From assembly GCA_002964805.2 (NCBI GenBank), contig PUDQ02000090.1:56810-120809 (forward strand): a stretch of 64,000 nt of DNA, in the 5' to 3' direction. The DNA comes from Trametes villosa. Taxonomy: Eukaryota > Basidiomycota > Agaricomycetes > Polyporales > Polyporaceae. A model generated the notes under the pieces. The model saw only the letters and a list, made by a program, of their open reading frames with translations, was not told where the DNA came from and did not search any database. Below, one piece after another: positions 31,716 to 53,237 of this stretch (positions are counted from its first letter, which is position 1; each line of letters opens with the position of its first letter). The translations under genes were made by a program, and so were the position numbers.

Positions 31716-32325
31716 CACGGCGGGCAAGAGCCAGTATCCTGCGAAGGGAAAGTCATGAGAAAACCCCAGGGCGTCTTTCCTTTCTCGGGGCTGTCACGAC
31801 GCGGGTTCCATGACAGAATAGGTAGCCTTTCCCGCGAGTTTCCCTCCATTATTCTGCAATGCGGAGGACAAAGCTTTCCCTGAACGGAAATTTCGCGCGA
31901 AACAATGGCTGTATCGGCCATTTTCAGGTCACAGAAATGCCCGGGATAGCAATCCTGTCCCGGCCAAATTCCGCCCTTTTCTGGATACGGCAAACGTGAC
32001 CTGTCGCACAGATATTCTGGTCCGGGAAAGGTGTCTTTCCGCAGAACAGCCTTGGGACGGGAAAGCGGCGGGACAGGTCACATGTTTCGAACATTTCCCG
32101 TCATAGGAAATGTGAGCAAAAGGTAAAGTGGCCCGCACATTTACCGTGACAGAGAATGCACGGGGTAGCTTACCTGCCTCGGGCAGAGCTGAATCGTTCC
32201 AGGGAAAGTTTACCTGCTCCCGCGCGTGAACGCAGTCCTGGTCGCGCGGTATAGGAAAGCTGCTTCGCTGCACATACGTTGTCAACGCTAACTCCAAGTA
32301 AGATGAGATTATCTACTGAACATCA
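31716..32325. repeat. Subterminal short-motif array of the left end
   Basis: Within about 600 bases there are roughly nine GGGAAAG/CTTTCCC-type hexa- or heptamers in both orientations, several GGTAAA/TTTACC, and an inverted pair GTGACCTGTC (about 32000) and GACAGGTCAC (about 32070). From CACTA biology such subterminal arrays are binding sites for the element's own DNA-binding protein. Confidence 0.6.
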
Positions 32326-33340
32326 TTAACTAAGACGCGACCACCTTGTAATGACTGGGAGGGAGGGTGTGCGAGGGAGTAGCGATGTACGGGAGCTCCA
32401 TTGCGTGCGAGAGCGCAAGCCTACAAGAGCGCGCGAGGCGCGTTGCGAGGGAGGAGGCCGCGTGGGTGCGAGGTGACGGCACGAGAACGAAGGCGCAGCG
32501 GAAGGCGCGGCGGTGAAGGCGCGGCGGACGGTGTGAGGGGGCGCGGTGGTACGGGCTCTAGGTGAAGGCGCGGGGGAGCGCACGCGCAAGTGTTGAGACA
32601 GAGCGACGACGGCGCGAGCACGCGTACAGGACGCGGGGTGCGAGGCGTCGGGGTGTGGATGCGAGAGGTGAGCGCCAGTGCGCCGGTGCGACGATGCGCC
32701 AGTGCGAGGGTGCGGCGCGAGGGTGAAGGCGCAGGGATGTGGGCGCGTGGGTGCGACGGTTCGAGGCGTCTGGGGCGAGGCGTCGGGGTGTAGGTGCGAG
32801 AGGTGAGCGCGACGATGCGGCGCGAGGGTGAAGGTGCGGGGGCGCAGAGACGCGAGTGCGCGAGTGCACGGGTGCGGCGGGGCGGCGGGGCGGCGGTGCG
32901 ATGGTGCGGCAGGGCGGCGGTGCGATGGTGCGGCGGTGCGATGGTGCGGTGCGTGGGTGCGGCGTGACGTGACGTGCTTGGACGCAACAGCGACGGCGCC
33001 AGCGCGCGCGGATGGAGGCGTGGGCGAGAGGATGTGGGCGCGCGGGCGCGCGGGTGCGCGGGTGCGACGGTGCGGCATGATGTGCTTGGATGCAGAGGCG
33101 TGGGTGCAAAGGCAGGGGCCTCGCGATGCGGGGGCGCGCAGAGCGGACCCGCGGTGTCGCGATGCGGGGGCGCGCACGCGGGCAGAGCGGACCCGCGGTG
33201 CAGCCAGACAAGTAGCGAAGAGACAAAGGAGCCGAGGAGCGACGGCGCGATGAAGCAGCGGAGCGGCAAAGCGACGGAGCGACTAGACAAAGGGAGTGGA
33301 GGAGCGACAGAGCGAAGGAGCGACGGAGCGACGGAGCGAG
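32326..33340. repeat. GC-rich degenerate minisatellite inside the left terminal repeat
   Basis: Imperfect units around GGTGCGACGGTGCG and GCGACGGAGCGACG repeated for about 1 kb; a mirror copy lies at about 51605-52620. It has no coding meaning. Confidence 0.8.
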
Positions 33341-33408
33341 CAAAGCGCCACCGTGGTGAACGCGCAGTCAGCGCCAAGACGTTCCGACGCCATGCCCGGC
33401 GGTCTTTA

Positions 33409-36400
33409 CTACATACTGGCTAATTCTGCGAATATAATGAGCACTATTCGGCAAACTGTGAGGTTTGTACTCACCCTATCCAGTGAAAGACATACGACGC
33501 ACTCCTCGCCGATTCCCGGAGGCGTGTACACCAGCGCAGCGAAATGGGTAACCACATCGTCGAGTGGTACTACAATCTGAGAAGAGCTCTTGTTGTAGCA
33601 TAGACGCGAGGCAAGCTCCGGAAATGATCGAAAGGGGTCGTGAGCGACATCTAGGCCCTGCAGCTCCGCGAAGATGTCGATAACGACGAAGGTCGACACG
33701 GTATTCTTCCCGTCTTGCAGGCGGTTGTGCAGGAGGATCTCCACAATCTGGCCAGCGCGAAGCTGGGTGTCGTCCGGGACAGCAACAAAGACATAAGAAT
33801 TCCGATGACCGTGTCGCCGCGTAGCGTAGGTGAGACCCGCTTTCTGCGCGCTGCGGGTAGGCTGAACGTACGGCGCGATACGAGGACGACCGTCGGAAGA
33901 TGGTGCGTAGAAGGAGGCGAACGACGCCGGCATAGCACGGAGTATACTATCGTAGCGCGAGCGATCAAGGATCACCTGCTTCGCGGCGTCGTAGGACACC
34001 TCAGCCACGCTCGTTGTCGCCCTTTCGGGATCCAGCGACACTGCGTCGCTAACACGAGTCCCACGGGTAGCGTCCCGGAAGACGGTACGGTACGCAGACA
34101 GCATATCTTGGTAGCTGTCGTCTCCTGGCCAGGTCGTCGAGTCCATGAGCCAGCGTAGTTCAGCTCCGGCGTAGAAGCCCCGCATGAACGTCAACGGGAT
34201 ATCGTCTATACCGCAAGGTGTCAGTAAGCTATGCGTCGACTCGAGGTTTCATGGACGTACCAGGCAAATTGTTGATGTTGAGGTTCTGGAGTAGTCCGTT
34301 GTATCGCTCAAACGGGTAAGCCCACCAGCCATGCACGGGGCCAAACAGCAAGAGACAGGCCGCCAGATGCAAGGATAGATGATGGTTCGGTACGAGATCA
34401 TGGGAGAAGAGTTCGCGCAAGCCCTGGAGATAGAGGAACATGTGGTTGTCGAAAGCCCTGGCCCGTTCCTCCGTCATGGAGCGCCGAGTTGCGAGACTCA
34501 CTGCGGTGACGAGATGGATGAAGTTGTCGAGCAACAGCTGGTCGCGCTTAGGGGCTCCGACGACTCCCCAGAGGCGTATCAACGTGATGGTGAGATTGAC
34601 GGTGCAGACTGTGCGCCATTGATCCGCCTTGAGTTTTCCGTGCGCCGCGCTGCCGAAGTTCTTCGGTGGGCGCTCCAACCATGATGGGAGGATGGTGATC
34701 GCGATGTCCGCGCGAATAACATCTATGATGTCCTGGGTGATGACGCGGAACTTGGATATGTCGTAGGGTCCGTCCGCGACGTGGAAGTCTGTCGTGTCTT
34801 CTTCCAAAACCGGCGGTAACTCCAGAGTATCGATTGGATGGGAGTCAGCCTGCATGCACGCCGAAGGTGAATAATCGTATACAAACGAACAGATACAGCA
34901 CGCACCCAGTCAAGCAACGCACAGATGTAATCCTTCTTGGTGAGGCGTGATTCTGGGACGATACCGTTCACCTGCGCGACCGCGGCAAGGTACCCCTTGC
35001 GGATGCCGGATAGCGCCGATCGAGACTTCCTCTGGAGGGCGGCGAGGACCCGGTTGAGCCACTGTTTCTGCTCTTCTGGCGTGTGCGGCGTTAAGTTCTG
35101 ACAACCGGCATGGTCCTTCACGTTGATGCCCCAAACATCTCTGCAATGATGTCGAAGGTCGCCGAGGAACAAGCAGTGCATCGCGTCTACGACAGAGAAC
35201 CGGATGGGATCCCAGTACGGCAGCCGCAGCAGCTCCGACCAGCGGATCCCGTACTCCTCGAAAACGGCGTTGCGTTCGGCTTCCGTCGGCGCGTGTAGCC
35301 ACAGGTCAGCGACTCGCCGATGCTCCTCTGTCGTACGCGTGGGCCAAGGACGTGAGAGGTCGTTGAGATGTTGCTTCCGTAAGCGACAGAAGGAACACAC
35401 GTGCTTCGAAGAGTGGCCCGCGAAACCGGCAGTCTTGCGAAGCGCGGGGAGATCGCAGACAAGCGGAATGACCGCGACGCGGAGGAAGAGTCCGGTGAAG
35501 CGTAAGGCAGTGCGCTTGAGGTAAAGCCCGCGTGTCCAGTAGCTCTCCAGCTCGTCTACCAGAGGCCGCAAGAGGTGGTTGAGCTGGTGTAGAGAAGGCT
35601 CCTTAGGGCCCGGTATGATGCCCACTAAGTAGACGTTCTCCGGGCGGTATCGCAGGTGAGGGGGAAGGTTGAGACATACAATGTAGATGGCGCCGATGGA
35701 GTGCGATTTACCAGCCTGCTTGTTCCCGAAAGGATTGAACCAATCTATGAATAGACTGAAGACGAGGTGGGAGGAGCCGGGCGGCTGGACAGAGAACAGT
35801 TGTCCGTCGGGGCCAAGGAATTGTCGAATCAAGGGAGCGTGGAAGACATCCGTCCAACGAGACTTCGACGGGACAGATCGAGTCCAAGAATTCACCAGGA
35901 GCTCCTCGATAGCAGGTCGAGAGAAGAGGGCCGCTAGCCACGACGCCAGAGATCGATAGGGGTACGGTTTCAGCGGGCGGTAGACAACGCGGGGCGGGCC
36001 GCCCTTCCGCGTAGGCGCCAGCTCCGTGCGCACCACCAGCGGCCGGCCACATTCTTCTTTGTCGGTCTCCGCGAAGTTGCAATGATGCGGGTACGGGTCG
36101 TCAGGGCGCGTGACGTCTGGGGGGTATGTCTTGAAGCAGCGCGGGCAGCAAGCGTACCGCACGATCTCGGGATCGATGTGCAGGTGCTTGAGTGCGGTTC
36201 TCACGTCCTTCGGAACGGTCTGTAGAACAGATTTTTGGGCAGCGGTGAGACGCCCCTGGTTGCAGAACACGAAGGCCCCGAAGAGGATGGCGCGGATAGT
36301 AGTGAGCACGTAGTGGGAATCGGCCCGAGTGACAGAGTGGACGGTATGAAGAATCGTGGTCATGATGAGCGCGGCGAGAACGAACGGCTCTAGATGAGCT

Positions 36401-37355
36401 CGAGCTTTGTAGAATCGCGCTTGGTCAAACGTCGTCAGCAACGAAAATGCTGATATAAAGATAATTGGCTCACCTGGGTCGTATACGTGGGGTCCGCTAT
36501 CGTGCTCTCCTCCAAGAGCGTACAGGCCAGCGTCAACCTTCTCGCCCTCCCACGACTGCGTCCTGATCTCCGCCATGCGCGCCACCTGTTCATCAACTTG
36601 ACAGAGCAGAGCGGCGAGCCTTCTGTCGACGTCGCGGTCTCCAACGTCCGTCATGGCGGCAAGGTACTGACGTGTCGACACGAGCCACTCGTAGAACTCG
36701 ACGAAATGCCGGGAAGCGTGCGTGGAGGGCTTCACCGTCGCCGGTGGATCGGACAGACTGGACGGTTTCGTGGCGAATACCAAGCGAACACCCTGAGGCG
36801 CCAGATGCAGGCGATGGTCAAGCCCAGATTGCAAGGCTGACAACACGCCCAGCCGTGCCTTCACTGTATCCGGCGGCGTCGGTTCAGCCGGCTGCAGCAG
36901 TTCGTAAGTTGCACGGATAGACGTATAGAGCGCTACCAAACACACCTTGTCCTGCAAATCGTCATCCTCGACATCGCTCTCGGAACGCGCATCTCCAGAT
37001 CCTCCCTCCATGTTGCCCTAGCATAGATGATGTGAGCTCCGTGAGAGATTCGTGAAGGTACAGGGTCTCATACTTCGTCTTCTGGACGGGCGGCGTCAGG
37101 CTCGACCGCGGGCGCCGGAGCGACACCCGCAGTGGCCATTGTGACGGTGTCTTCCAAGAGCGTCGCTTGTATCCTTCTTCGCTGAGCTTGTAGTTGGTCC
37201 GAAAGTTTGTGCCGCTTGATCATCTTGCTGCTTTGTGGATATCCCGGTCGTCTCACACGGTAAGGATCCTCGTAGGTCCGGCGACTGCACGCCGAGCAGA
37301 CGCATATCCCCGGTGGAGGGTCGGAGGGCGCATCGGAGGGAGCGTCGGCGTTCAT
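33409..37355 (-). CDS. Tnp2/CACTA-type transposase (Agaricomycete 'Plavaka'-like)
   Basis: DDE-type transposase, about 1,240 residues. The start MNADAPSDAPSDPPPGI at 37355 leads to a Cys segment (CVCSACSRRTYEDPYRV). A GTATGA intron leads to GNMEGGSGDARSESD. Tnp2 landmarks follow: IDWFNPFGNKQAGKSHSIGA with IYIVCLNLPPHLRYRPENVY, LVCDLPALRKTAGFAGHSSK with HVCSFC, and VVDAMHCLFLGDLRHHCRDV. A GTGCGT intron after CALLDW gives ADSHPIDTLELPP. A GTACGT intron after NNINNLP gives DDIPLTFMRGFYAGAELRWL and the C-terminal region to LIIFAELASM. All junctions are in phase and no stop interrupts, so it looks functional. A further in-frame intron may begin GTGAGC after VYDPG. It is transcribed toward the left terminus. 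Confidence 0.85.
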
Positions 37356-37518
37356 GGATGAGGAGGGAAGCAAGACGCACAAGCTCTAGGATGGACGGGG
37401 GAGGCCAGGCGACTTCGGCGTGGCTGTAGACTAAAACGGTATCCACCCGTGCAAAGAGATACAAGACTTCAGTACAAGGCACAGAATACAACGTATCGCT
37501 GATGGCATACACGCGCCC

Positions 37519-39193
37519 TTATAGTATCTCCATCAAATCCTGCCAAATCGGACGCAAGCGCACAGCACGTCCCAAAAGGCGAGCGGGAATAAAGTAATGT
37601 CCGACAACAGCCAAGAACAGCCCAATAGCGACTGCCGCAACGAAGAAAGTGAAGGAGACGTGAAGTGATGGTAGGACAAGACCGAAGAGTGATCCGCGTT
37701 TGAGGGCCCGCACTAGGACCCCTGCGGTGTAGCCAGATGCTGTTGCGGGAGGAACGCGTTGCAATGCAGAGGGAAGGAATGGCCAGCTTCCAGTGAGGAG
37801 GGTGCCGTCGGAAGGCAGGCGGGCACGCACTCGCTCGAGTAGTAAGCGGGAAAGGTCGCTCGCTGGATGGGTAGAGGGGGAGACGTCCGGGGTTGGCAGA
37901 TCGCTCGCAGACGAAGGGAGAGACGGTCCTTCTACGTCCGATGCCGATGGCTCGGATACGGATGTTGTGGGATGGCCGGAGGTCGAAGACATTGAACTGA
38001 GAGTGCTGCACTCGACCGAAGAGCCAAAGAGAGTGGGCCCTGGCGCCGGGGCATGCGGGGCAATGCTGTTCCAAGCTTCGCGGGCCAGTTCCTCGGCGAC
38101 GGTGCGGGAGGGAGAGTGGGAGGCAGAAACCGGGTTACCGAGTTGTTCGAGAGCGCCAAATTCAGCCGAAGAGCATGGAAGAGTAGGCGGGGGCTTGGCC
38201 GACGGTTCCAAGGTGTTCGCGGTAGGGCCGTCGCCAGTAGTGTGAACAAGTTCTTCAGCGAGAGTGCGGGGAGAGGGAGCGACGAGCACACTGAGGTTCG
38301 CATCTGCCAGATGAGTAGGCAAGTCGCAGAGAGCATCGTTGACTGTGTCGGTATGCAAGTCGCAGAGGGCGTCAACGTCCTGGTGGATGCGCTGCACGTT
38401 TCTTTGCAGCGCCGAACCTGTGGCTTCCACGACCGTCAAACCAAGCTCCACCCGCTCCGTCCTCGCTCTGTCAACATCGCGTTGGGATCTCATCACGGTG
38501 ACGTCCAATTCCACTCTTCCGGTTCTGCACTGGAGTTCATGCACGACGGCGCGCAGGGACTCCTTGTCGTGGCTGAGTATGCGCTGTACCTCCTGGCGGT
38601 GTTCTATTGACCGAATGTGAGTGTATAAACGCGGTGGGGAATGGATCTGCTGACCCTTGACGTCTCGAGACACTAGCGCGACTGAACGAGTCAGGTCCGA
38701 CGCGACCGAATGGAACTCTACGACCTCGCCCTCGAGTTCAGCAATGCGGTCATTCGCGGTCTCCTACGGGAAGTTAGAGCTTCTGGCATGAACGGACAAC
38801 ATGTGCACGGACATTACTGCGATCGGAGCTTCAGAGGTACCGAGATAGGTCTTCATGCCTATGGGCCAGTTGCTCCATTCTTTCGTCCAGAAGTGCAAAT
38901 CTCGCGTCCCAGCGCTGCTCAACATCGTCTAAGCTCCGACAGCTACGAAAGCGGTTCGTAAATGCACGCCGAGACGTGAGGGCATCAAGAACGTACACGG
39001 CGTGAACTAGATCGTTTAGCTTGCCCACGGCTTCCATGCAATCGCTGCTGCCAACCACGCCTGGCTCCAAGTAGTCCGATGGTGCATGCGTATGCGGAGT
39101 GCCCTTGATAGCCTCGGAGGTCGCCCGCGACCTCGCTTGATGCCTTTGGTCGAAGACTGCGAACCGTGGAGCAGCACGGCGGCGAGCGAGCAT
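37519..39193 (-). CDS. Coiled-coil protein with C-terminal membrane span
   Basis: The N-terminal exon (39193 to about 38835) runs from MLARRRAAPRFAVFDQRHQ to FALLDERMEQLAHRHEDLS. The main exon continues NDRIAELEGEVVEFHSVASD into a heptad-rich region (VQRILSHDKESLRAVVHELQ, TVMRSQRDVDRARTERVEL). Two similar segments follow (RTLAEELVHTTGDGP, RTVAEELAREAWNS), then a Ser/Pro-rich linker. One hydrophobic span (SFTFFVAAVAIGLFLAVVGH) lies near the end, with a basic tail finishing WQDLMEIL. The only GT donor in exon 1 (GTACCT) does not give the phase of the next exon. Either the junction is different or the gene carries a 1-base shift. Cargo of the giant element; no family recognised. Confidence 0.5.
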
Positions 39194-39659
39194 CGTATGT
39201 GGGCTTCGAGGCGAGGGAAGAGATGAAAGAGACCACAGCGATAGGAAGCAGCATTATAGACTGATCAGAAGGAGCTTAGTGCAGGCCTGAGTAGAGCCCA
39301 AGCGGACTGACGGATGCCACTCGAAGATCATGTTGTAATTGCTACTAGCAGGTCTCCAGGGAGTACAAAGTCAAGCGCGGAAGCGCCCGCGCGCTCCCTG
39401 GACCTCGCGCTACCTCGCGACGCGTGAGTGTGCCACTCTTCTCACTACGTCTGACTCTCAGTACGATTCCATTCCACTTATTGCCAGTCCATTCTTCCTG
39501 TGCTACAAGACGTGCCCACTATCAGAGCTCCGCGATCCCATGAAACCCAGACATCTTGGAAAGGGTGTGCCAGGAGTCTCCCAGGGGTGCGATAGCGAAA
39601 AGGTACGCATGCGACGGGAAAGCGCTGCCCTACCGAGGGGTTTACCGACCACTTAGCAA

Positions 39660-40943
39660 ATGTCGCAGCGCCCACCAGGGACACGGAAGGGAGAAGAACG
39701 CCAACGCAAGACCCTGCAAGCCCTCGATCGCGACTACATTGCGCGCTTTGAAGGCATCCGCGCCGCTGCAGCTGAGCAAAGTGTTCTGCCGCGGCGAGCA
39801 GAGCGCCGCACGCGTCCAAAGCACGAGCGTCCGAAACGGGAGCAATCAATGCATACGGCGGAATCCACTCAGCAAGACCAGGCGCACCGGGAGCACGAGA
39901 AGGCCGTCAGGGAGCGAGAGGAGCAGGCGCGCAGGGAGCAGGAGGAGCGGGCGCGCAGGGAGCAGGAGGAGCGGGCGCGCAGGGAGCAGGAGGAGCGGGC
40001 GCGCAGGGAGCAGGAGGAGCGGGCACGTCGGGCGCAGGAGGAGCAGGCACGCAGGGCGCAGGAGGAGCAGGCGCGCCGGGCGCAGGAGGAGCAGGCGCGC
40101 CGGGCGCAGGAGGAGCAGGCGCGCCGGGCGCAGGAGGAGCAGGCACGCAGGGCGCAGGAGGAGCAGGCACGCAGGGCGCAGGAGGAGCGAGCATGCCGTG
40201 AACGGAAAGAACGAGCGCGTTGGGAGCAGGAGCGGGAGAGGCAGGTCGATCTTCTTGCGCGCCGAGAATGGGAGAGGAGGGAGATGAGGCGCTGGGAGCG
40301 TGCAGAGCAATATCGGCGTGCGCGCAACGAGCAGTCTCGTCGGGAGAAAGCACGCTGGCATCGCGATACTCAAGCGCGTCGAGCCCGCGAAGAGTTCGAA
40401 GAGCGCGAGCGATGTGCGCACGAGGAGTACGAGCGACGGGCGCGCGAGGAGTACGAGCGGCAGGCGCGCGAGGAGTACGAGCGGCAGGCGCGCGAGGAGT
40501 ACGAGCGACAGGCGCGCGAGGAGTGCGAGCGACAGGCGCGCGAGGAGTACGAGCGACAGGTGCGCGAGAAGCAGCTGACTGAGGCCGACAAGCAGGAGAT
40601 CCTCGACCTGTACGATAAGAAGTGGACGGAGTTGAGAGCAAGTCAAACCCTCGAGAATGTCGTCGGATTCCACGAATTCCCCTTCCCCGTTCTGGTCGAC
40701 AGCCTCACCGACCCCTCTCAAATCACCCCCGAGCGCGTGCGAGAGTTCCTCCTACACCCTCGTCGCCGTGGTATTGCGGATAAGACGCCCAGGGAGGTGC
40801 TCAAATCTGAACTCCTGCGGTGGCACCCGGACAAATTCGATAAGTTCATTTGTTCCAAGATGCGCGAGGGTCACTGGGCTCCGACGAAGGAGGCGGCAGA
40901 ATTGGTGGCGCGTTGCGTCACACAACTGATGTCGCAGGTTTAG
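39660..40943 (+). CDS. Arg/Glu-rich coiled-coil protein with NFKBIL1-like C-terminal domain
   Basis: 427 residues in one exon, start MSQRPPGTRKGEERQRK, with an in-frame TAG two codons upstream. Residues about 80-185 are about a dozen copies of an 8-residue unit (REQEERAR / RAQEEQAR). Residues about 250-305 are a second array (EEYERQAR). After EADKQEILDLYDKKWTELRA come FHEFPFPVLVDSL, ITPERVREFLLHP and PREVLKSELLRWHPDKFDKF, then AAELVARCVTQLMSQ. This ELLRWHPDKF end is what I know from NFKBIL1-like fungal proteins. The arrays predict a long single alpha helix or coiled coil. Cellular role unknown; cargo of the giant element. Confidence 0.75.
   Translation: MSQRPPGTRKGEERQRKTLQALDRDYIARFEGIRAAAAEQSVLPRRAERRTRPKHERPKREQSMHTAESTQQDQAHREHEKAVREREEQARREQEERARREQEERARREQEERARREQEERARRAQEEQARRAQEEQARRAQEEQARRAQEEQARRAQEEQARRAQEEQARRAQEERACRERKERARWEQERERQVDLLARREWERREMRRWERAEQYRRARNEQSRREKARWHRDTQARRAREEFEERERCAHEEYERRAREEYERQAREEYERQAREEYERQAREECERQAREEYERQVREKQLTEADKQEILDLYDKKWTELRASQTLENVVGFHEFPFPVLVDSLTDPSQITPERVREFLLHPRRRGIADKTPREVLKSELLRWHPDKFDKFICSKMREGHWAPTKEAAELVARCVTQLMSQV
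39918..40195 (+). repeat. 24-bp coding minisatellite, first array
   Basis: Units like GCGCGCAGGGAGCAGGAGGA plus GCGG, about twelve copies in frame, coding an 8-residue repeat. Neighbouring units are almost identical, which suggests recent unit-number change. Confidence 0.9.
40419..40566 (+). repeat. 24-bp coding minisatellite, second array
   Basis: About six units around GCGCGCGAGGAGTACGAGCG, in frame, coding EEYERQAR. Confidence 0.9.
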
Positions 40944-40944
40944 G

Positions 40945-41367: not shown

Positions 41368-41551
41368 CGCTCACCCCGCGCTGAACACAAGGAGTCCTGA
41401 TGCTGTGCTAGGCAGTCATTGTAGCAAGGAGCAGTCCCTTGTAAGTACACCTGTCAAGAATATGACGGCTGATTGCGGACGATAGTCGGAGTATAAAGAG
41501 CAAGCCATCCACCAGTCGTTGATTTCATTCCCATTCGCGTCGCTGCCTATC

Positions 41552-43018
41552 ATGGTGCTCAGATACCTCGAGTCTGCTCGACTACTTGACGGCCACACCT
41601 CCGGGATCACGGCACTATCGTTCAGTGCTGAAGGAACCTACCTCGCTTCCGCCGGGCTTGACGGCAAAGCTTGTATCTGGGATCCCTCCGACAACCGTCT
41701 ACTGCACGTCTTTTCCGGTTCTGTCCCCGTCGTATCGCTCACTTGGGCGTACCCACGGGAGGATGTGCTGGTCTGTGGGCTGCAGGACGGTACGGTGGTA
41801 TGCCTCATAATATCGCAGGTATTTTCCCTTTCCAACAACATGTCCTTCGTGCCTGCTGAAAGTCATGCCAGCTCGACCTGGTGGTAGCGGGCTTTTGGGC
41901 TCATTCATACCCCGTCGAGTGTCTTAGGGTCATGGGTGATCTTCTGGCCTCCGGCGCTCACGAGGAAGTGCAAGTATGGAGGGGCGTTGGTGCAGGTGTG
42001 CCCGCTTTCATCCAGCATGATATCTTCATGGCTCTAACCGGTGCTGGCGCAGAGTTGTCCGAAGAGGCGGAAATACCAAGTCCGCCGATATCGTCGTTCA
42101 ACCGACTGGCGGAGATCGTGGTTACTAGCTTGCACTGGGTCGGAGCCGACTCGTTGAAGCCCGTCCGCCTGGTAGTTACTTACCTTAACCACGGCGTGCA
42201 GTAAGTCTGTCTTACCATGCGCGTGTTCGCTATCGCTGATATATCTAGCAGCGTGTACGATACCACCACTTGGGATCACATCTGCAGCATTCCGATTCCT
42301 GGCCAGATGTACGTTCATCCCGTTCACGCTTTGATGCATACCTGTTGAACTAGCGATTAGCGCCGACGCTAGCATCTCTCCCGATGCGAAGCGCATCGCT
42401 ATCTCCAACGTGATCGCGGGATTTGACGTCTACTCGCTCGAGTTAGGTCAAGCGGTATGTTCATTCGGTCATACCGTAAGTGGGTTTCGCAAAGTGCCCG
42501 TGCTATTTGTGCACGATGGCCTCGCCTTGTTGGGCGGTAACCTCAAAGGGGACGTACACTTGTGGGACGTACAGTCCGGCCGCAAGCTCCATAGCCTAAT
42601 CCATAAGAGTGAGTCAATGGATCACACGATGCGTTGAACCTTGGCTGAACTGTGATGCTTGCCAGAGGACGAAGAAATAATGACCTTGGCGGTGAGCACT
42701 CTTCGCAATGATGTTCCGGCGATACTCAAGATCTGGTCTCAGGCCTATTACCATCCGGCCTTCGACTGCTTCATGATTGCCACCGGCGTTCTGAATGGCG
42801 CCTCCCAAAGCGCGATCTATCTATGGAAAGCTGAAGAGTTAGGTGAGTAATCGAGTCGGGGTCTATTTTTGTTTAACCCTGAAGTATCTGTAGGTCGAAG
42901 CGAGCCACCCGAGCGTGCCCAGGGGCACAGGCAATGTCGGGTGCCGTGGGTGGCCTATTGGCTACTACCTGCGCTTGTTGTCGCCGTCTCCGCGGTCATG
43001 GCCCGAGAATTTCTGTAG
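41552..43018 (+). CDS. WD40-repeat protein with C-terminal membrane anchor
   Basis: Six exons, all joins in phase. The start is MVLRYLESARLLDGHTSGIT. WD40-type blades are visible: LLDGHTSGITALSFSAEGTY with LASAGLDGKACIWD, VVSLTWAYPREDVLVCGLQD, LRVMGDLLASGAHEEVQVWR, VYDTTTWDHICSIPIPGQI, ASISPDAKRIAISNVIAGFD, and LALLGGNLKGDVHLWDVQSG. The last exon, after GTGAGT...CTGTAG, encodes a basic linker and one hydrophobic stretch (VAYWLLPALVVAVSAVMARE) three residues before the stop. That is the layout of a tail-anchored protein. The beta-propeller should scaffold protein contacts at a membrane; partner unknown. Cargo of the giant element. Confidence 0.75.
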
Positions 43019-43344
43019 TGTATAGACTGCCTGCGCTGCTTCACTTGTGTCCCGTACTCAGATCTACGTCCAATGTGAATCGCCTGTTTCCCGGTGATGT
43101 TCGCAGCGGAGTCGGCGGTCCGACTCCGGCCCGGATCAACAATACGCGATCGGGACGGCGCTTCGATCGCGCATTGTCTGCATCGGAGCTTGGCACAGGC
43201 CACTGGCGCGCGCGCGTACCGTAGAAATGTCGGCCGCGCCCGCCCTTTTCTCGTGACCCTCTCTCTCGTCTCCACTGTGTCTTTGCCTGCGCGTCCCACT
43301 GCCCCGCACCTCACGTCTCCCTAGAGATTTACCCCACCATCCTC
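43019..43344. other. Intergenic region inside the giant element
   Basis: About 325 bases between the WD40 gene and the next gene. CT-rich close to the next start (43245-43320), as usual for fungal promoters; no gene. Confidence 0.45.
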
Positions 43345-44339
43345 ATGGACATGGAACTTCGGCTCCGTGAACTCACCTGCCTCGTCATCGTCGGGTTATG
43401 GCTGTTCGGTGTAGGGCGACGGTTGTGGAGAGCGCCACGGCCGCCGCCTACAACCTTCTACACCTTCTCAGCGAAGGCGCCGATAATTCAAGGCAAAACC
43501 ACGCTTCTGGAGTTCGCTTCCCCGTCCTCGCGTCGTCTGCGTGCCGCAACTCAGCCGACTATCCTGAAGGTGTTGGATACATTCAATATCGGCCGAGCCA
43601 GGTGCGTTAAGAGAAAGTACGGCAGCGTCTGCCCATACTGAACTCAGGTCTTGCAGCCCCGAATGTGTCCTTCCCACTCAGGAAGATGTCGAGGATATCA
43701 AGTTGCTGAGCGCGGCTCCAGAGATCAAAACCGACCAGCGATTCATCCCGACAATACGCTTTTCCAAAAGCCCCGTTCTACGCATCGAGCCCATCCGGTC
43801 CACCTCTATCGCTCCATCGACCGCCCCCGTACCCGCGCGTATCACGCGCTCTGCATCCAAGTCCTCCTTGATGTCACCGGTCAGTGTATCTGGAGGCGGC
43901 GCGGTCGTAGACACATCTGAGGCGGTGAGTATGTTGTGTGAAAGACGAGCCTATCGCTGACTCTAGCACTAGCTCCTCTACTATACCCGATGGACGAAGC
44001 CGCATACCGCTTGGTTCAAGTCGGACGGTGTAGCACCCGTCGATCACCCTCCTCGCATGCGCAATGAACATGAGATACGTCTCGGGGACGTCTTCTGCCA
44101 CCGCACTCCGCAAGGCTGTCAGCTTTGGCTTCGAAACCAGGAAGGTTGGCGCCCCGTCACCGTTGGCTACCAACGCTCCGACGGACGGTGCTTGTCGATC
44201 ACTAAGAAGAAGAGCGATCCCTCGTGGGTGGGCTCGGAATGGTGCACCAAACGGATGTCTGCCAGTACGTACGTCCGATGCTGGCGTCATGACCTGGTAC
44301 TGATCGAAGGCAGTGAGAAATCAGGCACGAGCTGACTGA
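43345..44339 (+). CDS. Hypothetical protein with N-terminal membrane span
   Basis: The start is MDMELRLRELTCLVIVGLWL, a hydrophobic N-terminal span (LVIVGLWLFGVGRRL). Intron 1 (GTGCGT to TTGCAG) joins GRA to SPECVLPTQEDVEDIKLLSA in phase. A Ser/Thr/Pro-rich middle follows (STSIAPSTAPVPARITRS). Intron 2 (GTGAGT to CACTAG) joins TSEA to LLYYTRWTKPHTAWFKSDGV. The end contains IRLGDVFCHRTPQGCQLWLR and YQRSDGRCLSITKKKSDPSW. A last intron (GTACGT to GGCAG) may give a short end RNQARAD. No family recognised. It lies 148 bases before the SUN-domain gene on the same strand. Confidence 0.55.
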
Positions 44340-44487
44340 TGGCGAGCATGCGGTTGGACCGCCTTTAGTCGACGTTGTATGCGTATACTAGTACATAATG
44401 GGTCAGCCTTGTATTCAGAATGCACCTTGCCACTCTCTCCGTTTCTGAGTCGATGCGCACGCAGAGTCTTCCGCTACTACCACCAGG

Positions 44488-45588
44488 ATGACCGGTAAAC
44501 CGCTTGCTCGCTCTCCATTCGACCCCTCGCGCTTCGTTCATGAGGAACCTTCTAGACAACGTGAGTTTGAAGTACAGATTGATGGTGGAGTCGTACTGAC
44601 AGGGCGGCGCAACTCAGACAAAGAGAAGTCTGTTCGCTTCCAGTCCGACCAGGCGTCGTTCAGCGAGCGTGCTCCGCAGCAAACCCTTCCGCAGCGCCAT
44701 TATCCCCTCATCTCCCGTCGACGCCAACGGTCTCTTCGACTATCCATATCTTTCATCCTCCTACTTGTTCTTGGAGTCGTGAGCGCGTGGTTCTGGGTGC
44801 CTACGCCGCACGCCCGCGACCGCGCCGCGGGATGGATACGCAGCCTCGACGGGGTTAGGAGGCGCGTCCTCGTCGCATTTGACACCCCCGACACTGCACC
44901 TCTCACGCGATCGGCCTGCTCCCCGCACCAAGCTATCCAAGATACCGCCGTCTTCTCGGCTCGTTGGGGACCTGTGCTACGGCCGGACTACGCTTTGACC
45001 GCCAACGGGGCAAAGATAGTGCCGACACTGACATCCCCCTTCCCCACCGGCTCCCGCAAACCACCTCTACCTCTTGGGCAGCTGGGTCCGGAAGTTGCGC
45101 TCGACGAAGACGTGTCAATAGGCCACTGCTGGGTCATTCCGGGTTCGGGCCAAATCGGACTTGCCACAGCTATGCTCCTATATCCTACACACGTAACCGT
45201 CGAACACATTCCCCGCCAAGTCGCTGTGGATATCGGTCGCGCCCCCCGCAACATGATCCTTTGGGGCGTGGTTGACGGACTGCCCAACATACAACGTTAC
45301 CGCCAGCTTCTGGACACTGGAGGCACGAGATTCCTTCCCGATTCTCCGCTACGCAGTCGCTCCGCACCTCCCCTGTCGGCCACTCACTCGTTCGTCGCCC
45401 TCGCCACTTTCGAATACTCCATCTCCGGCGATTCACCGATCCAGACGTTCGCAGTCTTCGATCACGTCATACGTTCGAGCATGGACTTTGGTATATTCGT
45501 TTTGGAGGTCATCGACAACTGGGGTAGTACGGATGCTTGCTTGTATCGAGTTCAGATTCACGGTTCGCCTGCGCCGCTCGACGGGTAA
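44488..45588 (+). CDS. SUN-domain (Sad1/UNC-84-like) membrane protein
   Basis: 366 residues, one exon. A basic N-terminal region of about 85 residues precedes one membrane span (LRLSISFILLLVLGVVSAWF). The lumenal part ends in a SUN-type fold: HCWVIPGSGQIGLATAMLL, YPTHVTVEHIPRQVAVDIG, RAPRNMILWGVVDGL, FVALATFEYSISGDSPIQTF, and FGIFVLEVIDNWGSTDACLY then RVQIHG. These strands match the known SUN order, with RAPR and NWG as the clearest marks. SUN proteins sit in the inner nuclear membrane and bind KASH proteins in the perinuclear space. The coiled coil between membrane and SUN domain is very short, unlike canonical Sad1. It is cargo of the giant element, so a transposon-borne paralogue rather than the housekeeping copy is likely. 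Confidence 0.82.
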   Translation: MTGKPLARSPFDPSRFVHEEPSRQREFEVQIDGGVVLTGRRNSDKEKSVRFQSDQASFSERAPQQTLPQRHYPLISRRRQRSLRLSISFILLLVLGVVSAWFWVPTPHARDRAAGWIRSLDGVRRRVLVAFDTPDTAPLTRSACSPHQAIQDTAVFSARWGPVLRPDYALTANGAKIVPTLTSPFPTGSRKPPLPLGQLGPEVALDEDVSIGHCWVIPGSGQIGLATAMLLYPTHVTVEHIPRQVAVDIGRAPRNMILWGVVDGLPNIQRYRQLLDTGGTRFLPDSPLRSRSAPPLSATHSFVALATFEYSISGDSPIQTFAVFDHVIRSSMDFGIFVLEVIDNWGSTDACLYRVQIHGSPAPLDG

Positions 45589-45977
45589 GTGCGCGGTGTA
45601 GTATGCGAGCGGTTACCCTCGTCCGACTCTTAGATACAACCATGTACTCTTTAGAGGCGCCGCCGCAACGGCGGATATTGTCATACTCAGTCTGCATAAT
45701 GGAGACAGTGAACAGAGCTGTCCTATCGCGTTGAAGCTGGATTTGCCACCCAAGTCGAGTCGGACGTTGAGCGCTGAGCGCTGAGCGCTGAGCAGCGGGA
45801 TTGCTCGGGGTGCAGGCGCTCTTCCCTATCTAAGCTGCGAGCACCTCGGACTGCGCGTTGACCCGTACCTGTCTCCTACCCTCGCTTTGCTCTCGCTGCG
45901 CCCCCATGTCGCCTGTCCTCCCTGCTCGCGCTATGACGCTCTCTGCTTTGCTCTCGAGGAGACAATGGCCCTGGGTG
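45589..45977. other. Intergenic region inside the giant element
   Basis: About 390 bases between the SUN gene and the next promoter, containing a small heptamer repeat. No gene. Confidence 0.45.
45769..45795. repeat. GCGCTGA heptamer repeat, about four copies
   Basis: GAGCGCTGAGCGCTGAGCGC pattern; each unit contains the palindrome AGCGCT. Confidence 0.8.
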
Positions 45978-45986
45978 TATATATAT
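45978..45986 (+). promoter_or_regulatory. TATA box of the Agaricomycete-family gene
   Basis: TATATATAT, about 65 bases upstream of the ATG at 46048. Confidence 0.55.
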
Positions 45987-46047
45987 GTGTGCCCGAGCTG
46001 CTCTCAGCCTCATCCCAACCCACATCCACCATCCATACACCCCAAAG

Positions 46048-48663
46048 ATGTCTTCGCGCCCCTACTCTGTGCCCCCCGGTCTTGCACGTCAAGACACCAT
46101 GCCTGCTCCCGCCGACACTCCGTCCGTCGCTGGGACTAAACGTCCTCTGGACACCAGCGACCCTCAACCCGTTCGGAGGGCCCCGCTTGAGCGGCAGGCT
46201 GCTATGGTGCGCTCAGTCCGTCTGACATTGTTGATATGCTCGTTAATACCGCCCACAGCCCCCGCCCCCTAGGAGATACCCGGGCAAGACGGCGACTGCA
46301 GCGCGCGATCCAGCTGAAGTGCCTCACATGGGGGCTCCTCCAATGCCCCAGTACTATGTTCCCCCGCAAGCTCCTTACCCCGTACTATCCGTCTCACGAT
46401 TGTGATTATTGCGCATATACTAAATGAAGCTGCAGTTTCCGCCGCCCGGAGCTTACGCGGGGTACCCCTACCCGCCCATGCCCCATCTCGGTGCTCCGTT
46501 CATACAGCCCGGAGGGCCTATCCCCGCTCCTTACGGTCCGGCGGCGTACCCCCCAAACATGTATGGTCCGGCGGCCGCTCAGAACGCCGAACCTACCGTC
46601 CCTCAGGTGAGCCCGTCGCGTGGATGTCCGTCATGATGTTGACATGGTTCAACAGGACGCCGCCGAGGCTCGATTGCTCTGGGAGCGACTGGATCCTGCG
46701 CAGCGCGAGCAGCTCGTGCGCTTGTTCCAGTCTCAGCAGCAGGGGTTCGCCGTGCCTCAAGCCTCCGCCACCGCCAACGGCGCGCGCGACGATGGTATTC
46801 GCAATGAGGTGAGCGGCATCCTACCGCTGATAGAGAGCTACCGCCGATATTATGGTTCTGCAGACGCTTAAGCCTGCTGAAGGCGAGGATATCATGGCTG
46901 TCGACGACGAAGGAGATGTCAACGCCACTCCGCGGGACGGAGGCAAGGGCAAAGGCAAGGTACGTACTCGACCATGTTCCTCCAGCGTGTCTGATATCCA
47001 TTCACGTAGGTGGTTGACGATCAATGGCCCGGGGACGCTACGATGGCCGATGCGGGCTTCTCCAGCACCCCTCCGCAAGCTACAGCTGCCGATGGCCTGA
47101 CGAACCAGTTCGGAAGGATGCTGCTCGACCACGTGCAGACGTCGCATGATCAGATGAACAAGCTGATGTCCGACTTCATGGCGCAGCAGAACAAAGTCCA
47201 AGAGCTTTTTAGGTGCGTGCGGTCGGTCGTGCGCGCGGGTTACGGGTAGTATACTGATAGCGCATTCGCAGGAACGTCGTCGTAGACGAGCTCCGAGCAG
47301 CTCATGGCAAGGCTCAGCCAGTTCAGAACCCGTTACCCTTCGCTGGACGTAAATTAGGCCGCGGAACCAAGGCGGCGCCTGGCGTAGACGGTTCCCGTAC
47401 GGCCCCTCCGCCCTCGTCGCCGCGTAAACGGAAGCGCGGTACAGCCTCCGCATCTCCTGACACGGAGACTAGCCCTGAGATGAAGGATGCCCTGAAGAAA
47501 CTGCAGGTAAGCGCCTGCTCCGCAAAGCTTCACGGCGTCGGGCGACTCACCCAATTCCCCCGTCTGTAGGGCAGCGTCCGCGTGCATCTCAAGAAGATGC
47601 TCAAGTTCTCTACATGGGAAGAACTGGTAGAGCGTCACCCCGCGCTGACGGACGAGGAGATGAAGGCGTTCGGAACCCCCAAGAGCACAGTCGTCTGCAC
47701 CGAAGACGATTTCCGCATCGACTTCGTACACGAGTGGAAGCGGACTCCTTTCAATCTCTTCGCTCGGGATCTCTTCGTCCAGAACCTCCTCCAGTGCATC
47801 CAGGGTGGGGCGTTCGGTTTCAAGGCAGACATCGTACCGTTGATTACCAACGTACATGTAAGATCTATTCGTACACTGCGCGCTGCCGACGATGACTGAA
47901 CTCTCGGCCAGGTCGAGCGTTCTCTGGACAGCCACATGGACCACTGCCGACGCCAATACAGTCAAGCGCTCCTCTTCCTTAGCTTGGACTCCGACGACGA
48001 AGAGGGCCTCAGGCAGATAGCCTATCACAAGGAGAAAGTGGCTTCGATCAAGAAGCGCAAGGCTAAGAACAGTCGCAAATTTACCGTGAGTGCCTCAGAT
48101 CTCAAACGATTCTGTCTCTCAACCGCTTGCAGTTGTTGGAATCGCGCGTATTCCTGATCGAGTTCATGGAGCTGCACCACCACCTTGTGCTATTCGAGAA
48201 GCTCGCTCCGCGCAACATGAGCGGCGACGAGACCGACGGCGACTCACGAGAGCTCCCCATGGCGTATCGCATCATCGAGTCACGCTGGCAGAGTGTCCCC
48301 TTCAAAACGTTCATGCGCACCATCGACGCCGCCAACCGCAAGCGCTGGGCGCAGCCTGGGGCGGACGCGCGCGCCACTGGTGGGAACGCTCCTCGCACGC
48401 GGCTCTCCCGCGCCAATGGCCCCGTCGAAGACGGTTACGCGCCTCCCGGGCTGTGGCGTAACTGCTACGACGCAGATTGGCTGCGCAGCCTGCCGCCCTA
48501 CCGAAGGCGGGCGCTCAACATCATAGACGCCGACTATGACTTCGATCTCTCTGAGCTGCTCGAAGAAGACGACAGCGGTACCGACGGATGCGAAGTCTCT
48601 GATATCGAGATGAGCCAGGAGGACGTCGATGAGTCCGAGCTGGAGGCCGAGGAAGACTTGTGA
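46048..48663 (+). CDS. Agaricomycete-expanded family protein of unknown function (full-length copy)
   Basis: About nine exons. The N-terminal half is low-complexity: MSSRPYSVPPGLARQDTMPA, then Pro/Tyr/Gly-rich GAYAGYPYPPMPHLGAPF, a coiled stretch (RLLWERLDPAQREQLVRLFQ), and a basic segment (PRKRKRGTASASPDTETSP). The conserved half begins VRVHLKKMLKF and contains TVVCTEDDFRIDFVHEWKRT, PFNLFARDLFVQNLLQCIQG, VERSLDSHMDHCRRQYSQ and a Lys/Arg-rich segment. It ends with APPGLWRNCYDADWLRSLPP and an acidic tail. I recognise this FRIDF/ARDLFVQ/HMxxxRRQY pattern from multi-copy hypothetical proteins of Agaricomycetes. A truncated sister copy lies at 50918. Function unknown. Confidence 0.7.
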
Positions 48664-48883
48664 ACAATCTTAGACGACTGGTGAGTTCCCATCAGCCCTC
48701 CCCCGCACGTTTCTGATGGAACGCGTGTGCAGCGCGACTTGCTGAGCTTATGCCTGCTCCCGGAAAGTGCCTCCCGAATCTCTGTTATATTTCAACTGTA
48801 CCGTAGTACTTATCATAGCGTGTGTGCAATCATAATGCCTTTCCGACGACGAACGTGTGATGTTCCATGCATGTACAAGGTAC

Positions 48884-50019
48884 CTACAGTCTGAACGAGT
48901 CGTGACGACTAACTCTGGTCGAAGATGCCGTCACCCACACTGCCCCCTCGCTCTTGAACCAGTGAGTGAGCTGCGGCCCCGCTACGCCCTCCGAGATAAC
49001 AGCAATGTAAAACAGACGTGGGTGCGCGACGGCGCGCTGTCCGACCCCATTCGCCCACGCGGTGATGACGTCCTGCTCGGTACGGTTTGGACCAGTGGTG
49101 ATGCTGATCAACGTCCGAATGTTGAGTTCTTCCAAGTTTTGCAGCCTGAGAAGAGTCAGGTGCCATTCGCGAACGTCGTTCCAGGCACGACGATTTGCGG
49201 GGCGGCGCTTGAGCACAGGTCAAAATTGGGCATCAATCTCTGACGTATCCTCACTCACCTCGACCTGGTGCTTCTCGTTCATCTTGAGCTTACGCAGGGT
49301 GGGGATCGCGGCAGCTACGCGAGAGAGGACATCGTAGTCGTTGGAGAAATGGTCGATAGTGAGAGAGTACAGGCGCGAGGACGTCATGGCTTGCACCGCG
49401 AGAGCCGACATCGAAGTCAGCCGAGTCAGGCGGACCGTCGCGGTGACCAACGAGCCGGGAATGATGGCGGAAAAGCACCGGGAGGGGCTATGAAGGGAGT
49501 TGAGGCGATTCAGAACGAGGCCTTCGAGGGGACAGGTGGCGCCACGCCCACACGAGCGAAGGATGAGCGCGGTGATCGAATGGTGATCCTCGAGGAACGA
49601 ACGCAGGACACGATGAGGGAGATTGGTAGAGAATGTCGTCAGGTTGTTGTAGTTCAGACCGTTCAGCAAGGTGACCGGCGAGGTTGCGGGGAGGTCCAAG
49701 ATCAGGCACTCAATGTTGGGAGTCAGCCGCAGAGCTGCGCGAACGACCGAAGCAGGATAGCCTTGGTTACTGGGCAGCGAGATGGTGAGATCTTCCACGA
49801 TGCGACCGATGTTTGCGTTGCATCTGACTGCTGCCACGAAGTACCGCAGCTGTCCGAGCGTCCAGATGCGAACATCGCGGGGAGCGGGTCGAGAGTGAGC
49901 GTCCTGAAACGTTCGCCAGGTTAGAGTGTGAACGACCGCTCCTCGGTGGTAGAAGGGGAACTCACATTCCACAGGGAAGCTTGCTGCCCACTACGCGTGG
50001 GAGAGAGTACGAGAGCCAT
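48884..50019 (-). CDS. LRR-like protein of the F-box superfamily type, without a visible F-box
   Basis: Three exons in phase. Exon 1 is MALVLSPTRSGQQASLWN. After a GTGAGT...TTTCAG intron comes DAHSRPAPRDVRIWTLGQLR. A leucine-rich body follows: GRIVEDLTISLPSNQGYPAS, LRLTPNIECLILDLPATSP, LNYNNLTTFSTNLPHRVLRS, SRLYSLTIDHFSNDYDVLSR. After a GTGAGT...TCAAG intron the end is RRPANRRAWNDVREWHLTLL to RVSRHDSFRL. The repeat style is that of basidiomycete F-box/LRR proteins, but the first exon is too short for an F-box. It may be an F-box-less relative or have lost its N-terminus. Cargo of the giant element. Confidence 0.6.
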
Positions 50020-50917
50020 GGTGTGCTAGGCAGTTCTGCGATGAGGATGTATGGTGGTGATATTATTAAACGCTGATGGTGACCTTTTATACGGCAGCAG
50101 ACGGAGCACGTCGAGTGCGTAGCAACCTGCCACATAACAGATTCGGTGAACAAGAACGATGGACAGTTGAACCGCACGAGGATTAGCACGCTCACCAATG
50201 TCACCGACATGTCTCGCGGCGTTGTTCTAACGCCACTGTGCCCTACAGTGTCTACTTCAGCGTTGTTTTCCCTAAACGACGATATCGAGAACAAGAGCAT
50301 ATCAGCATAACAAATCACCCGCATCAGCAACTTTGAGGCCTCTTTGTAGCGTTTGACATGTCGGGTTTTGGCGAGCGCTTATGTCGATCGTCAGCATTGC
50401 TCGCAGGTGGCGGACAACGGTCAGGAAGCCCACGCACTTTCGCTCTCGCTCAGAGATTGCCATACCTAGAGCAAGATAATCACTGGCTCTGACCTCGCCA
50501 CCCCTGGAGCCATATACACGCTGAAGCGCCATGGGCGCTTCATCGAAGGCGTTACCGTTGACGCTCGGAAATAAGGTTCAACGCTCACCATCATCCGCGT
50601 TTCGTGCTTGGCTCAATCCGCTCCGCAGCCTTTCATCCACAACGATCCAACAACAGCATGCATGCCTCTGTGCATCCTGTGCCTCGCCGACTACTGCGTG
50701 TACCTGGTCGAGCACACTAGCGGGTATTGGCAATCCTCGCCCTGGGCCAGACTTGCTGCCGCCCCCCTCGCTACCACTTGCACGAATGCAGACGAATGCA
50801 AACGAGAAAACAACGCCTGGCGTGCGTTGCATGCATAAGACGCGGCGTTCTCTGGCAGGGTATATAAGGCTGTGAGTCTCTCCACTCTACCTCAATTCCT
50901 CACTCACTGTCACGACA
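50020..50917. other. Intergenic region inside the giant element
   Basis: About 900 bases upstream of two divergent genes. It includes a TATA box at 50861 for the plus-strand gene. No further gene recognised. Confidence 0.45.
50861..50867 (+). promoter_or_regulatory. TATA box of the truncated family copy
   Basis: TATATAA, 57 bases upstream of the ATG at 50918. Confidence 0.55.
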
Positions 50918-51518
50918 ATGAACTCCAACGCCGAAAGCGACACCGTCACGACGACGAACTCCAGCGCCGAACGCGACGAGTTTAACGCTAGGGTTGCGCT
51001 TCGCGTAAGTCACCAACCATCACAAGGGTACCGCGCTGACATGGGGAGACCACAGCCTACCATCAGGCGCCACCTCTTTCGCCTACTCAAGATCTCGAAT
51101 GCGAGTGGGCTCGTCGCAGCTTGCCCGCCGCTCAGCTACAAGGAAGCCTGGACCTGCAACCCCGATAAATTGGCAGAGCTCTGCAACACGCAAAACTTCC
51201 GCGTCGACATGAAACACAGCTGGAAGTACTCTGTGTTCAACCGGTATGCCCGCGACGTGTTTTGCCGTGATCTCCTTGGAGCTATCGTCGCCGGAGAGTA
51301 TGGCTTGGAGCCCAACGTGGTCGCTGCGGTGAGCTACGACATGGTATGTTGCCGAGTTCTTTCGGTTCACGACTGGCTACTTATGGGTGTCGAACTCAGA
51401 TTGGCGAGTGCCTCGACATGACCATAACCTGGTGCAGGTGGAAGTATCGCACTTCCGTCGCGCGGCGGGCAGAGCAGACCTGAGAAGGAAATTGGAACGA
51501 TATCGGTTGAGCGTTTGA
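50918..51518 (+). CDS. Truncated second copy of the Agaricomycete-expanded family
   Basis: Three exons in phase: MNSNAESDTVTTTNSSAERD through LR; then PTIRRHLFRLLKISNASGLV through NVVAA; then VEVSHFRRAAGRADLRRKLE to YRLSV and TGA. It aligns with the core of the protein at 46048: NTQNFRVDMKHSWKYSVFNR with EDDFRIDFVHEWKRTPFN, and YARDVFCRDLLGAIVAGEYG with FARDLFVQNLLQCIQGGAFG. The exon boundary before VEVS matches the boundary before VERS. The long N-terminus and the C-terminal half are missing, and the stop lies 64 bases before the right terminal repeat. Its own TATA box and clean splicing suggest it may still be expressed; equally it may be a remnant cut by rearrangement. Confidence 0.6.
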
Positions 51519-51581
51519 TCTGTGTGTATGTTCTCCAAGGCCACCGCAACAATAGATGTGATTCGCGGCACAACGGGGTTT

Positions 51582-53237
51582 CTTGAGCGCTGACTGCGCG
51601 CTCACCACGGTGGCGCTTTGCTCGCTCCGTCGCTCCGTCGCTCCTCCACTCCCTTTGTCTAGTCGCTCCGTCGCTTTGCCGCTCCGCTGCTTCATCGCGC
51701 CGTCGCTCCTCGGCTCCTTTGTCTCTTCGCTACTTGTCTGGCTGCACCGCGGGTCCGCTCTGCCCGCGTGCGCGCCCCCGCATCGCGACACCGCGGGTCC
51801 GCTCTGCGCGCCCCCGCATCGCGAGGCCCCTGCCTTTGCACCCACGCCTCTGCATCCAAGCACATCATGCCGCACCGTCGCACCCGCGCACCCGCGCGCC
51901 CGCGCGCCCACATCCTCTCGCCCACGCCTCCATCCGCGCGCGCTGGCGCCGTCGCTGTTGCGTCCAAGCACGTCACGTCACGCCGCACCCACGCACCGCA
52001 CCATCGCACCGCCGCACCATCGCACCGCCGCCCTGCCGCACCATCGCACCGCCGCACCATCGCACCGCCGCCCCGCCGCACCCGTGCACTCGCGCACTCG
52101 CGTCTCTGCGCCCCCGCACCTTCACCCTCGCGCCGCATCGTCGCGCTCACCTCTCGCACCTACACCCCGACGCCTCGCCCCAGACGCCTCGAACCGTCGC
52201 ACCCACGCGCCCACATCCCTGCGCCTTCACCCTCGCGCCGCACCCTCGCACTGGCGCATCGTCGCACCGGCGCACTGGCGCTCACCTCTCGCATCCACAC
52301 CCCGACGCCTCGCACCCCGCGTCCTGTACGCGTGCTCGCGCCGTCGTCGCTCTGTCTCAACACTTGCGCGTGCGCTCCCCCGCGCCTTCACCTAGAGCCC
52401 GTACCACCGCGCCCCCTCACACCGTCCGCCGCGCCTTCACCGCCGCGCCTTCCGCTGCGCCTTCGTTCTCGTGCCGTCACCTCGCACCCACGCGGCCTCC
52501 TCCCTCGCAACGCGCCTCGCGCGCTCTTGTAGGCTTGCGCTCTCGCACGCAATGGAGCTCCCGTACATCGCTACTCCCTCGCACACCCTCCCTCCCAGTC
52601 ATTACAAGGTGGTCGCGTCTTAGTTAATGATGTTCAGTAGATAATCTCATCTTACTTGGAGTTAGCGTTGACAACGTATGTGCAGCGAAGCAGCTTTCCT
52701 ATACCGCGCGACCAGGACTGCGTTCACGCGCGGGAGCAGGTAAACTTTCCCTGGAACGATTCAGCTCTGCCCGAGGCAGGTAAGCTACCCCGTGCATTCT
52801 CTGTCACGGTAAATGTGCGGGCCACTTTACCTTTTGCTCACATTTCCTATGACGGGAAATGTTCGAAACATGTGACCTGTCCCGCCGCTTTCCCGTCCCA
52901 AGGCTGTTCTGCGGAAAGACACCTTTCCCGGACCAGAATATCTGTGCGACAGGTCACGTTTGCCGTATCCAGAAAAGGGCGGAATTTGGCCGGGACAGGA
53001 TTGCTATCCCGGGCATTTCTGTGACCTGAAAATGGCCGATACAGCCATTGTTTCGCGCGAAATTTCCGTTCAGGGAAAGCTTTGTCCTCCGCATTGCAGA
53101 ATAATGGAGGGAAACTCGCGGGAAAGGCTACCTATTCTGTCATGGAACCCGCGTCGTGACAGCCCCGAGAAAGGAAAGACGCCCTGGGGTTTTCTCATGA
53201 CTTTCCCTTCGCAGGATACTGGCTCTTGCCCGCCGTG
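51582..53237 (+). repeat. Right terminal inverted repeat, about 1.66 kb
   Basis: Inverted copy of 31716-33378. The inner boundary is at GCGCTGACTGCGCG (near 51586) and the outer end at GCCCGCCGTG (53237). It contains the minisatellite (about 51605-52620) followed by the short-motif subterminal array (52620-53237). Confidence 0.9.

Follow-up and report, generated by a model that had tools for sequence, protein, structure and literature searches.

A large CACTA-type DNA transposon of Trametes villosa with long terminal inverted repeats and a recurring set of interior genes

CACTA/EnSpm elements typically, though not by definition, have short inverted repeats of tens of bases, and are usually described with one or two genes; subterminal repeats to which element proteins bind are a further feature of the group. 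In fungi, EnSpm/CACTA elements are characterized by CAC..GTG termini, 3-bp duplications and a Tnp2-like transposase that has the motifs C(2)C and H(3-4)H (Kojima 2025, PMC12730594). Some fungal DNA transposons bear an extra gene, TET/JBP, and Plavaka elements end in TGT..ACA or CATCA..TGATG (PMC12730594). CNIRT6 of Cryptococcus neoformans measures about 7.5 kb, contains a single large gene and has inverted repeats of 24 bp (PMC12810828). Starships have been reported from the basidiomycete Tremella fuciformis (PMC13066641).

The 21,522-bp element described here carries a Tnp2 transposase and occupies positions 31716–53237 of the window, the 64,000-nucleotide stretch of T. villosa DNA that was analyzed (contig C88; other loci are also named by contig). 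It very probably belongs, as an apparently complete element, to a large, low-copy, multi-gene CACTA/EnSpm (CMC-group) lineage in a Trametes-clade polypore. An initial annotation of the window had proposed a large basidiomycete CACTA-type element, which is borne out by the Tnp2 match, the 3-bp duplication, further loci of the same kind, and the protein matches of the element, which indicate the Trametes clade (Polyporales).

Ends, transposase and insertion site

The element has the ends CACGG...CCGTG, and the triplet CCT lies directly outside both arms (Table 1). Comparison of the arms and flanks agrees with the initial description of these ends, of the ~1.66-kb arms and of the CCT flanks. The two arms differ by 2 substitutions and 3 gap events spanning 25 columns, and tandem arrays of 8-bp and 24-bp units are found inside the left arm (32871–32949 and 33236–33339). 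In the 46.7-Mb, 140-contig assembly, the arm sequence occurs only at these two places, apart from two weak matches (75–76%) on C106 that adjoin a related transposase. An empty site, which the initial annotation had suggested looking for in other strains, was not found in this assembly (no match at up to three mismatches).

Table 1. Features of the window element (window coordinates).
Feature	Position	Strand	Evidence
Left target-site duplication, CCT	31713..31715		arm/flank comparison
Left terminal inverted repeat, 1,664 bp, starting CACGGCGGGC	31716..33379	+	arm comparison
Tnp2-type transposase gene, several predicted exons	33409..37310	-	PF02992; tblastn with homologues
Coiled-coil-like protein, C-terminal hydrophobic segment	37519..39253	-	ORFs 37519–38763 and 38831–39253, joining inferred
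Repeat-rich coiled-coil gene, passenger	39657..40943	+	6 other genome matches, all away from strong Tnp2 loci
WD40 gene, several exons, hydrophobic tail at end	41552..43018	+	PF00400, E=9.2e-13
TFSA gene (name given here), membrane protein, N-terminal hydrophobic stretch	43345..44335	+	recurrence and hydropathy
SUN-domain (Sad1/UNC) gene, one hydrophobic segment ahead of domain	44449..45588	+	PF07738, E=6.1e-12; SUN1 structure match, 3.8e-13
ARD domain (name given here), first copy	47573..47887	+	sequence matches
ACD (name given here), acidic-tailed protein	48067..48663	+	sequence matches
F-box/LRR-like gene	48953..49990	-	name rests on one source's label (P0144) and an LRR match below threshold
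ORF holding second ARD copy	50876..51421	+	sequence matches
Right terminal inverted repeat, 1,657 bp	51581..53237	-	arm comparison
Right target-site duplication, CCT	53238..53240		arm/flank comparison

The transposase was recognized by a PF02992 match in ORF 34723–37017 (E=3.9e-16; 59.3 bits, cut-off 28.6), and Trametes homologues matched four stretches in tblastn (33475–34206, 34301–34876, 34888–36876 and 37077–37310). Its last ORF begins 29 bases past the left arm, in line with the initial placement of a Tnp2 transposase just inside one repeat. Residues D425, D522, C541 and C544 (CSFC) are invariant across 15 aligned transposase proteins, and the next exon of the window transposase encodes HHLSLH and FERYNG. 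Of 120 homologues, a large share of them partial, 25 have a FERYNG-type motif, which is taken here to hold the last E of the DDE triad. Judged from these alignments, the predicted protein appears to have the DDE residues and the C(2)C and H(3-4)H motifs of CACTA/EnSpm. A profile search of solved structures with the transposase returned no transposase match.

Two observations concern the neighboring DNA. The left end of the element and the start codon (31611) of an ORC1-like gene (29270–31653, minus strand) are 104 bp apart, with the element on the upstream side; AAA scored over its cut-off in this gene and BAH below its own. Because of this short distance, the ORC1-like promoter may be affected by the insertion. 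Additionally, two direct copies of ~2 kb (21146–23719 and 25833–28164; 82% identical) hold the minus-strand ORFs 22439–23791 and 26812–28257, for which no Pfam match was found. From their sequence, the copies appear to be an old tandem gene pair.

Related elements in the same genome

A search of the genome with the transposase ORF gave 65 matched stretches, including that of the window itself, and 17 other loci scoring at least 270 bits (strong Tnp2 loci). The surroundings of seven of these 17 (C47, C106, C24, C5, C1, C3 and C18) and of C33 were examined. Six of the seven strong loci are bounded elements of 18.6–34.7 kb that begin with CAC; no arms were found at C5. Counting the window element, all seven delimited elements have CAC...GTG termini and five have matching 3-bp flanks. 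Related bounded elements with 3-bp duplications, which the initial annotation had suggested looking for, thus exist at other loci. Arm length ranges from 0.3 to 2.0 kb over the seven, rather than the tens of bases typical of CACTA/EnSpm.

The arms show no substitution in the elements at C47 (20,606 bp; arms of 1,303 and 1,289 bp; flanks TCC/TCC), C24 (19,375 bp; arms of 298 bp; flanks TCA/TCA), C3 (25,283 bp; arms of 1,475 bp; flanks CAC/CAC) and C18 (27,706 bp; arms of 1,985 bp; flanks TCA/TCA). At C24 and C18, the outermost matching base lies one outside CAC, and the end was set at CAC. The C106 element (21203–55877, ~34.7 kb, with bounds set by hand) has arms of ~1.8 kb with 8 substitutions, all at the inner edge after base 1,743, and a flank match of 4 bp (CATC) rather than 3 bp. 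It also has CACGGCGGGCAAC ends resembling those of the window element, two TFSA matches near the transposase and a ~1-kb tandem array. The C1 element (C1:5722603–5741219; 18,617 bp) has arms of 925 and 931 bp with 4 substitutions, and its flanks, TCC and TAT, do not match.

A partial element at C33:1–7500 differs from the C1 element by 12 substitutions across 5,396 aligned bases. The match ends exactly at the element end, the flanking DNA is different, and both the C33 flank and the C1 right flank read TAT in element orientation. The C33 arm and the C1 right arm are separated by 2 gap events and no substitution, and the C1 left arm is 4 substitutions from each. The simplest reading is that C1 and C33 are two insertions with swapped junctions, either via recombination or by misassembly.

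These junctions and the four elements without arm substitutions are what would be seen if arm identity were an artefact of assembly or polishing, which would make the extent of the elements uncertain. This explanation is given very little weight, since the arms differ by indels in the window, C47, C106 and C1 elements, and polishing would not create the matching flanks outside the arms in five of the seven. Cut-and-paste transposition does not renew arm identity, yet arms of this length with few or no substitutions occur in elements whose transposases differ by 28–50%; gene conversion may therefore keep the arms alike, although polishing artefacts could contribute.

The window transposase is closest to that of C47 (72%), whereas the F-box-like protein is closer to those of C24, C1 and C5 (56–59%) than to that of C47 (37%). 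Since the nearest relative differs between the two proteins, the elements probably exchange parts.

Interior genes and their possible roles

The initial annotation regarded about 14 kb of the interior as cargo, that is, as unrelated host genes taken up by a CACTA element. This is mostly incorrect, as the gene set recurs in divergent elements and clusters with Tnp2 genome-wide. The transposase, F-box/LRR-like, WD40, TFSA, SUN, ARD and ACD genes occur together in the window, C47, C24 and C1 elements. From the transposase end, the order in C47, C24 and C1 is transposase (-), F-box-like (-), WD40 (+), TFSA (+), SUN (+), ARD (+) and ACD (+), with an additional ARD ahead of SUN in C1 and an additional ACD and ARD at the end in C47. 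The genes detected at C3 and C18 have match positions that agree with this order, but the examined part of C3 gave no WD40 match. Gene order does vary, since TFSA matches are close to the transposase at C106 and C116. In the window element, the F-box-like gene is located near the right arm and the passenger gene in the middle.

Clustering was measured as the fraction of genome matches, besides those of the window itself, that are no more than 30 kb from a strong Tnp2 locus, for which the chance expectation is ~2.2%. For the four core genes pooled, 44 of 60 matches fall within this distance: 8/8 for F-box-like, 9/15 for SUN, 15/21 for ACD (12 loci; two C3 matches are parts of one gene) and 12/16 for TFSA (10 loci). 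The matches are not mutually independent, since the genes travel together. The coiled-coil gene at 39657–40943, used as a control, has none of its six matches near a strong Tnp2 locus and behaves as a passenger, the sole one among the interior genes tested. The other coiled-coil ORF, 37519–38763, matched only one other element, C47 (E=8.2e-14).

Because these extra genes are shared with related elements elsewhere in the genome, most of the interior looks, on sequence evidence, like the transposon's own kit rather than cargo. The passenger gene is what acquisition of host genes would produce, and the variation in gene content and in the place of the F-box-like gene also fits that alternative. 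As a general explanation it is nevertheless very unlikely: divergent elements share the remaining tested genes, with the order mostly kept, and it counts as refuted for SUN, TFSA, WD40, ARD, ACD and F-box-like, all of which lie inside the arms of several divergent elements. The SUN and ACD genes also look conserved, as dN (0.23–0.84) is lower than dS (at least 1.13 or saturated) in all 12 pairwise comparisons, the ratios being rough with dS near or at saturation.

Sixteen of the 60 core-gene matches are away from strong Tnp2 loci. Twelve of these form SUN, ACD and TFSA groups on C114, C33, C72 and C52, and the other four (two SUN and two ACD) are solitary, at C20:938929, C1:4943873, C65 and C120. 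C20 carries two SUN copies (C20:632853 and C20:938929), which score almost equally and both have a frame of 586 aa; only one of them is near a Tnp2 locus. A Pfam search of the genome for SUN domains gave its best PF07738 match at C74, which is taken as the host's own SUN gene, and the remaining matches were at loci already known. The solitary matches, and the fact that hosts ordinarily have proteins of the SUN, WD40 and F-box-like classes, would also be compatible with a host gene cluster or segmental duplication lying beside transposon remains by chance. Such a coincidence is extremely improbable given that the set lies inside the arms in the window, C47, C24 and C1, that the C1 and C33 copies stop at the element end, and that the presumed host SUN gene is elsewhere.

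Parts of the same linkage are seen in gene models of other Trametes. The T. cubensis models g11426 (SUN, P0003) and g11431 (Tnp2, P0011) are five numbers apart and are both given an 18,626-base contig, and g11431 continues into a stretch that matches ACD at 41.5% identity. TFSA and SUN are fused in a further T. cubensis model (P0001), as are Tnp2 and ARD in a T. pubescens model (P0010). The 18,626-base figure is also printed for the T. pubescens protein P0012, and the linkage is therefore argued from gene numbers and fusions.

The SUN family profile matched SUN1 and SUN2 among solved structures (best 2.8e-25). The domain is C-terminal, with EHIP and NWG..CLYR..HG stretches, and follows one hydrophobic segment in the window, C47, C24 and C1 elements (hydropathy 2.04–2.51). 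An N-terminal hydrophobic stretch is present in TFSA of the same four elements (only 1.59 in the window). The hydrophobic tail of WD40 reaches 1.99 in the window, is visible by eye in C47 and possibly present in C1, and none was evident in C24. Next to the transposase, the window, C47 and C24 elements have a minus-strand ORF with a late hydrophobic segment, and C1 has a weaker case. These hydropathy values, obtained with no trained predictor, are weak evidence, as 17 of the 220 stop-to-stop ORFs of at least 120 aa in the window reach 1.9. KASH partners of SUN proteins end in a PPPx-type motif, although fungal KASH proteins vary; such an ending is absent from the hydrophobic-tailed ORFs beside the transposase in the window, C47 and C24.

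From family knowledge and the duplications, the transposase would cut both ends and paste the element with a 3-bp stagger. ARD/ACD may act like TnpA of plant elements by binding the repeats in the arms, and is the best candidate for such a helper because it is linked to the transposase, a linkage also present in other species; structure prediction of ARD/ACD was of no help on this role. The F-box/LRR-like protein may send a host protein to degradation. The SUN gene suggests, tentatively, a role at the nuclear envelope, where SUN and the other hydrophobic-anchored proteins may work to the benefit of the element through position or shelter, escape from silencing, or spread between the nuclei of a dikaryon. 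More doubtful is the fuller proposal of a DNA-transposon lineage with its own nuclear-envelope module (SUN and other membrane-anchored proteins); by positioning its DNA or transposase there, such a lineage would pass from one nucleus of a dikaryon to the other or bias its own inheritance.

Comparison with known systems

No such element was found described in the accessible text of the open-access literature (including PMC12730594, PMC13066641, PMC12129025, PMC9674265, PMC4457147, PMC8955403 and PMC12810828); specialist repeat libraries may hold some without comment on their genes. If a lineage of 19–35-kb elements with long self-identical arms and about six recurring accessory genes holds, it would represent a new complexity class of cut-and-paste element. 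The parts of the kit hint that it controls nuclear position and the turnover of proteins, and the lineage offers a concrete system in which to study the persistence of low-copy transposons in dikaryotic fungi. Multi-gene interiors in general need a conservation test before they are labeled cargo.

The termini, the 3-bp duplication and the transposase motifs are common to the window element and the fungal EnSpm/CACTA elements (PMC12730594). In contrast to the fungal elements in the accessible portions of that paper, the present ones have the SUN, WD40, TFSA, F-box-like, ARD and ACD set, with arms of 0.3–2.0 kb and lengths of 18.6–34.7 kb. No TET/JBP gene was noted among the window ORFs scanned.

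Plavaka elements share related CMC-group transposases and occurrence in Agaricomycotina (PMC12730594). The CAC..GTG ends of all seven elements speak against assignment to Plavaka, and PF18759 had no match in the window ORFs scanned.

CNIRT6 is likewise a basidiomycete CACTA element with a DDE transposase, and has CACT-type ends; its 24-bp repeats and one large gene differ from the long arms and multi-gene interior found here (PMC12810828). The initial annotation had also likened the window element to Starships, which are large multi-gene mobile elements of fungi (PMC13066641). The analogy holds for size class. Starships move by a tyrosine recombinase (captain), whereas the present element has a transposase of the Tnp2 type between long inverted repeats, and no Pfam match to a tyrosine recombinase was found in the 11 interior ORFs scanned. 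The SUN protein resembles SUN1, SUN2 and Sad1 in its C-terminal SUN domain after one hydrophobic segment, and differs from them in that its gene sits inside a transposon.
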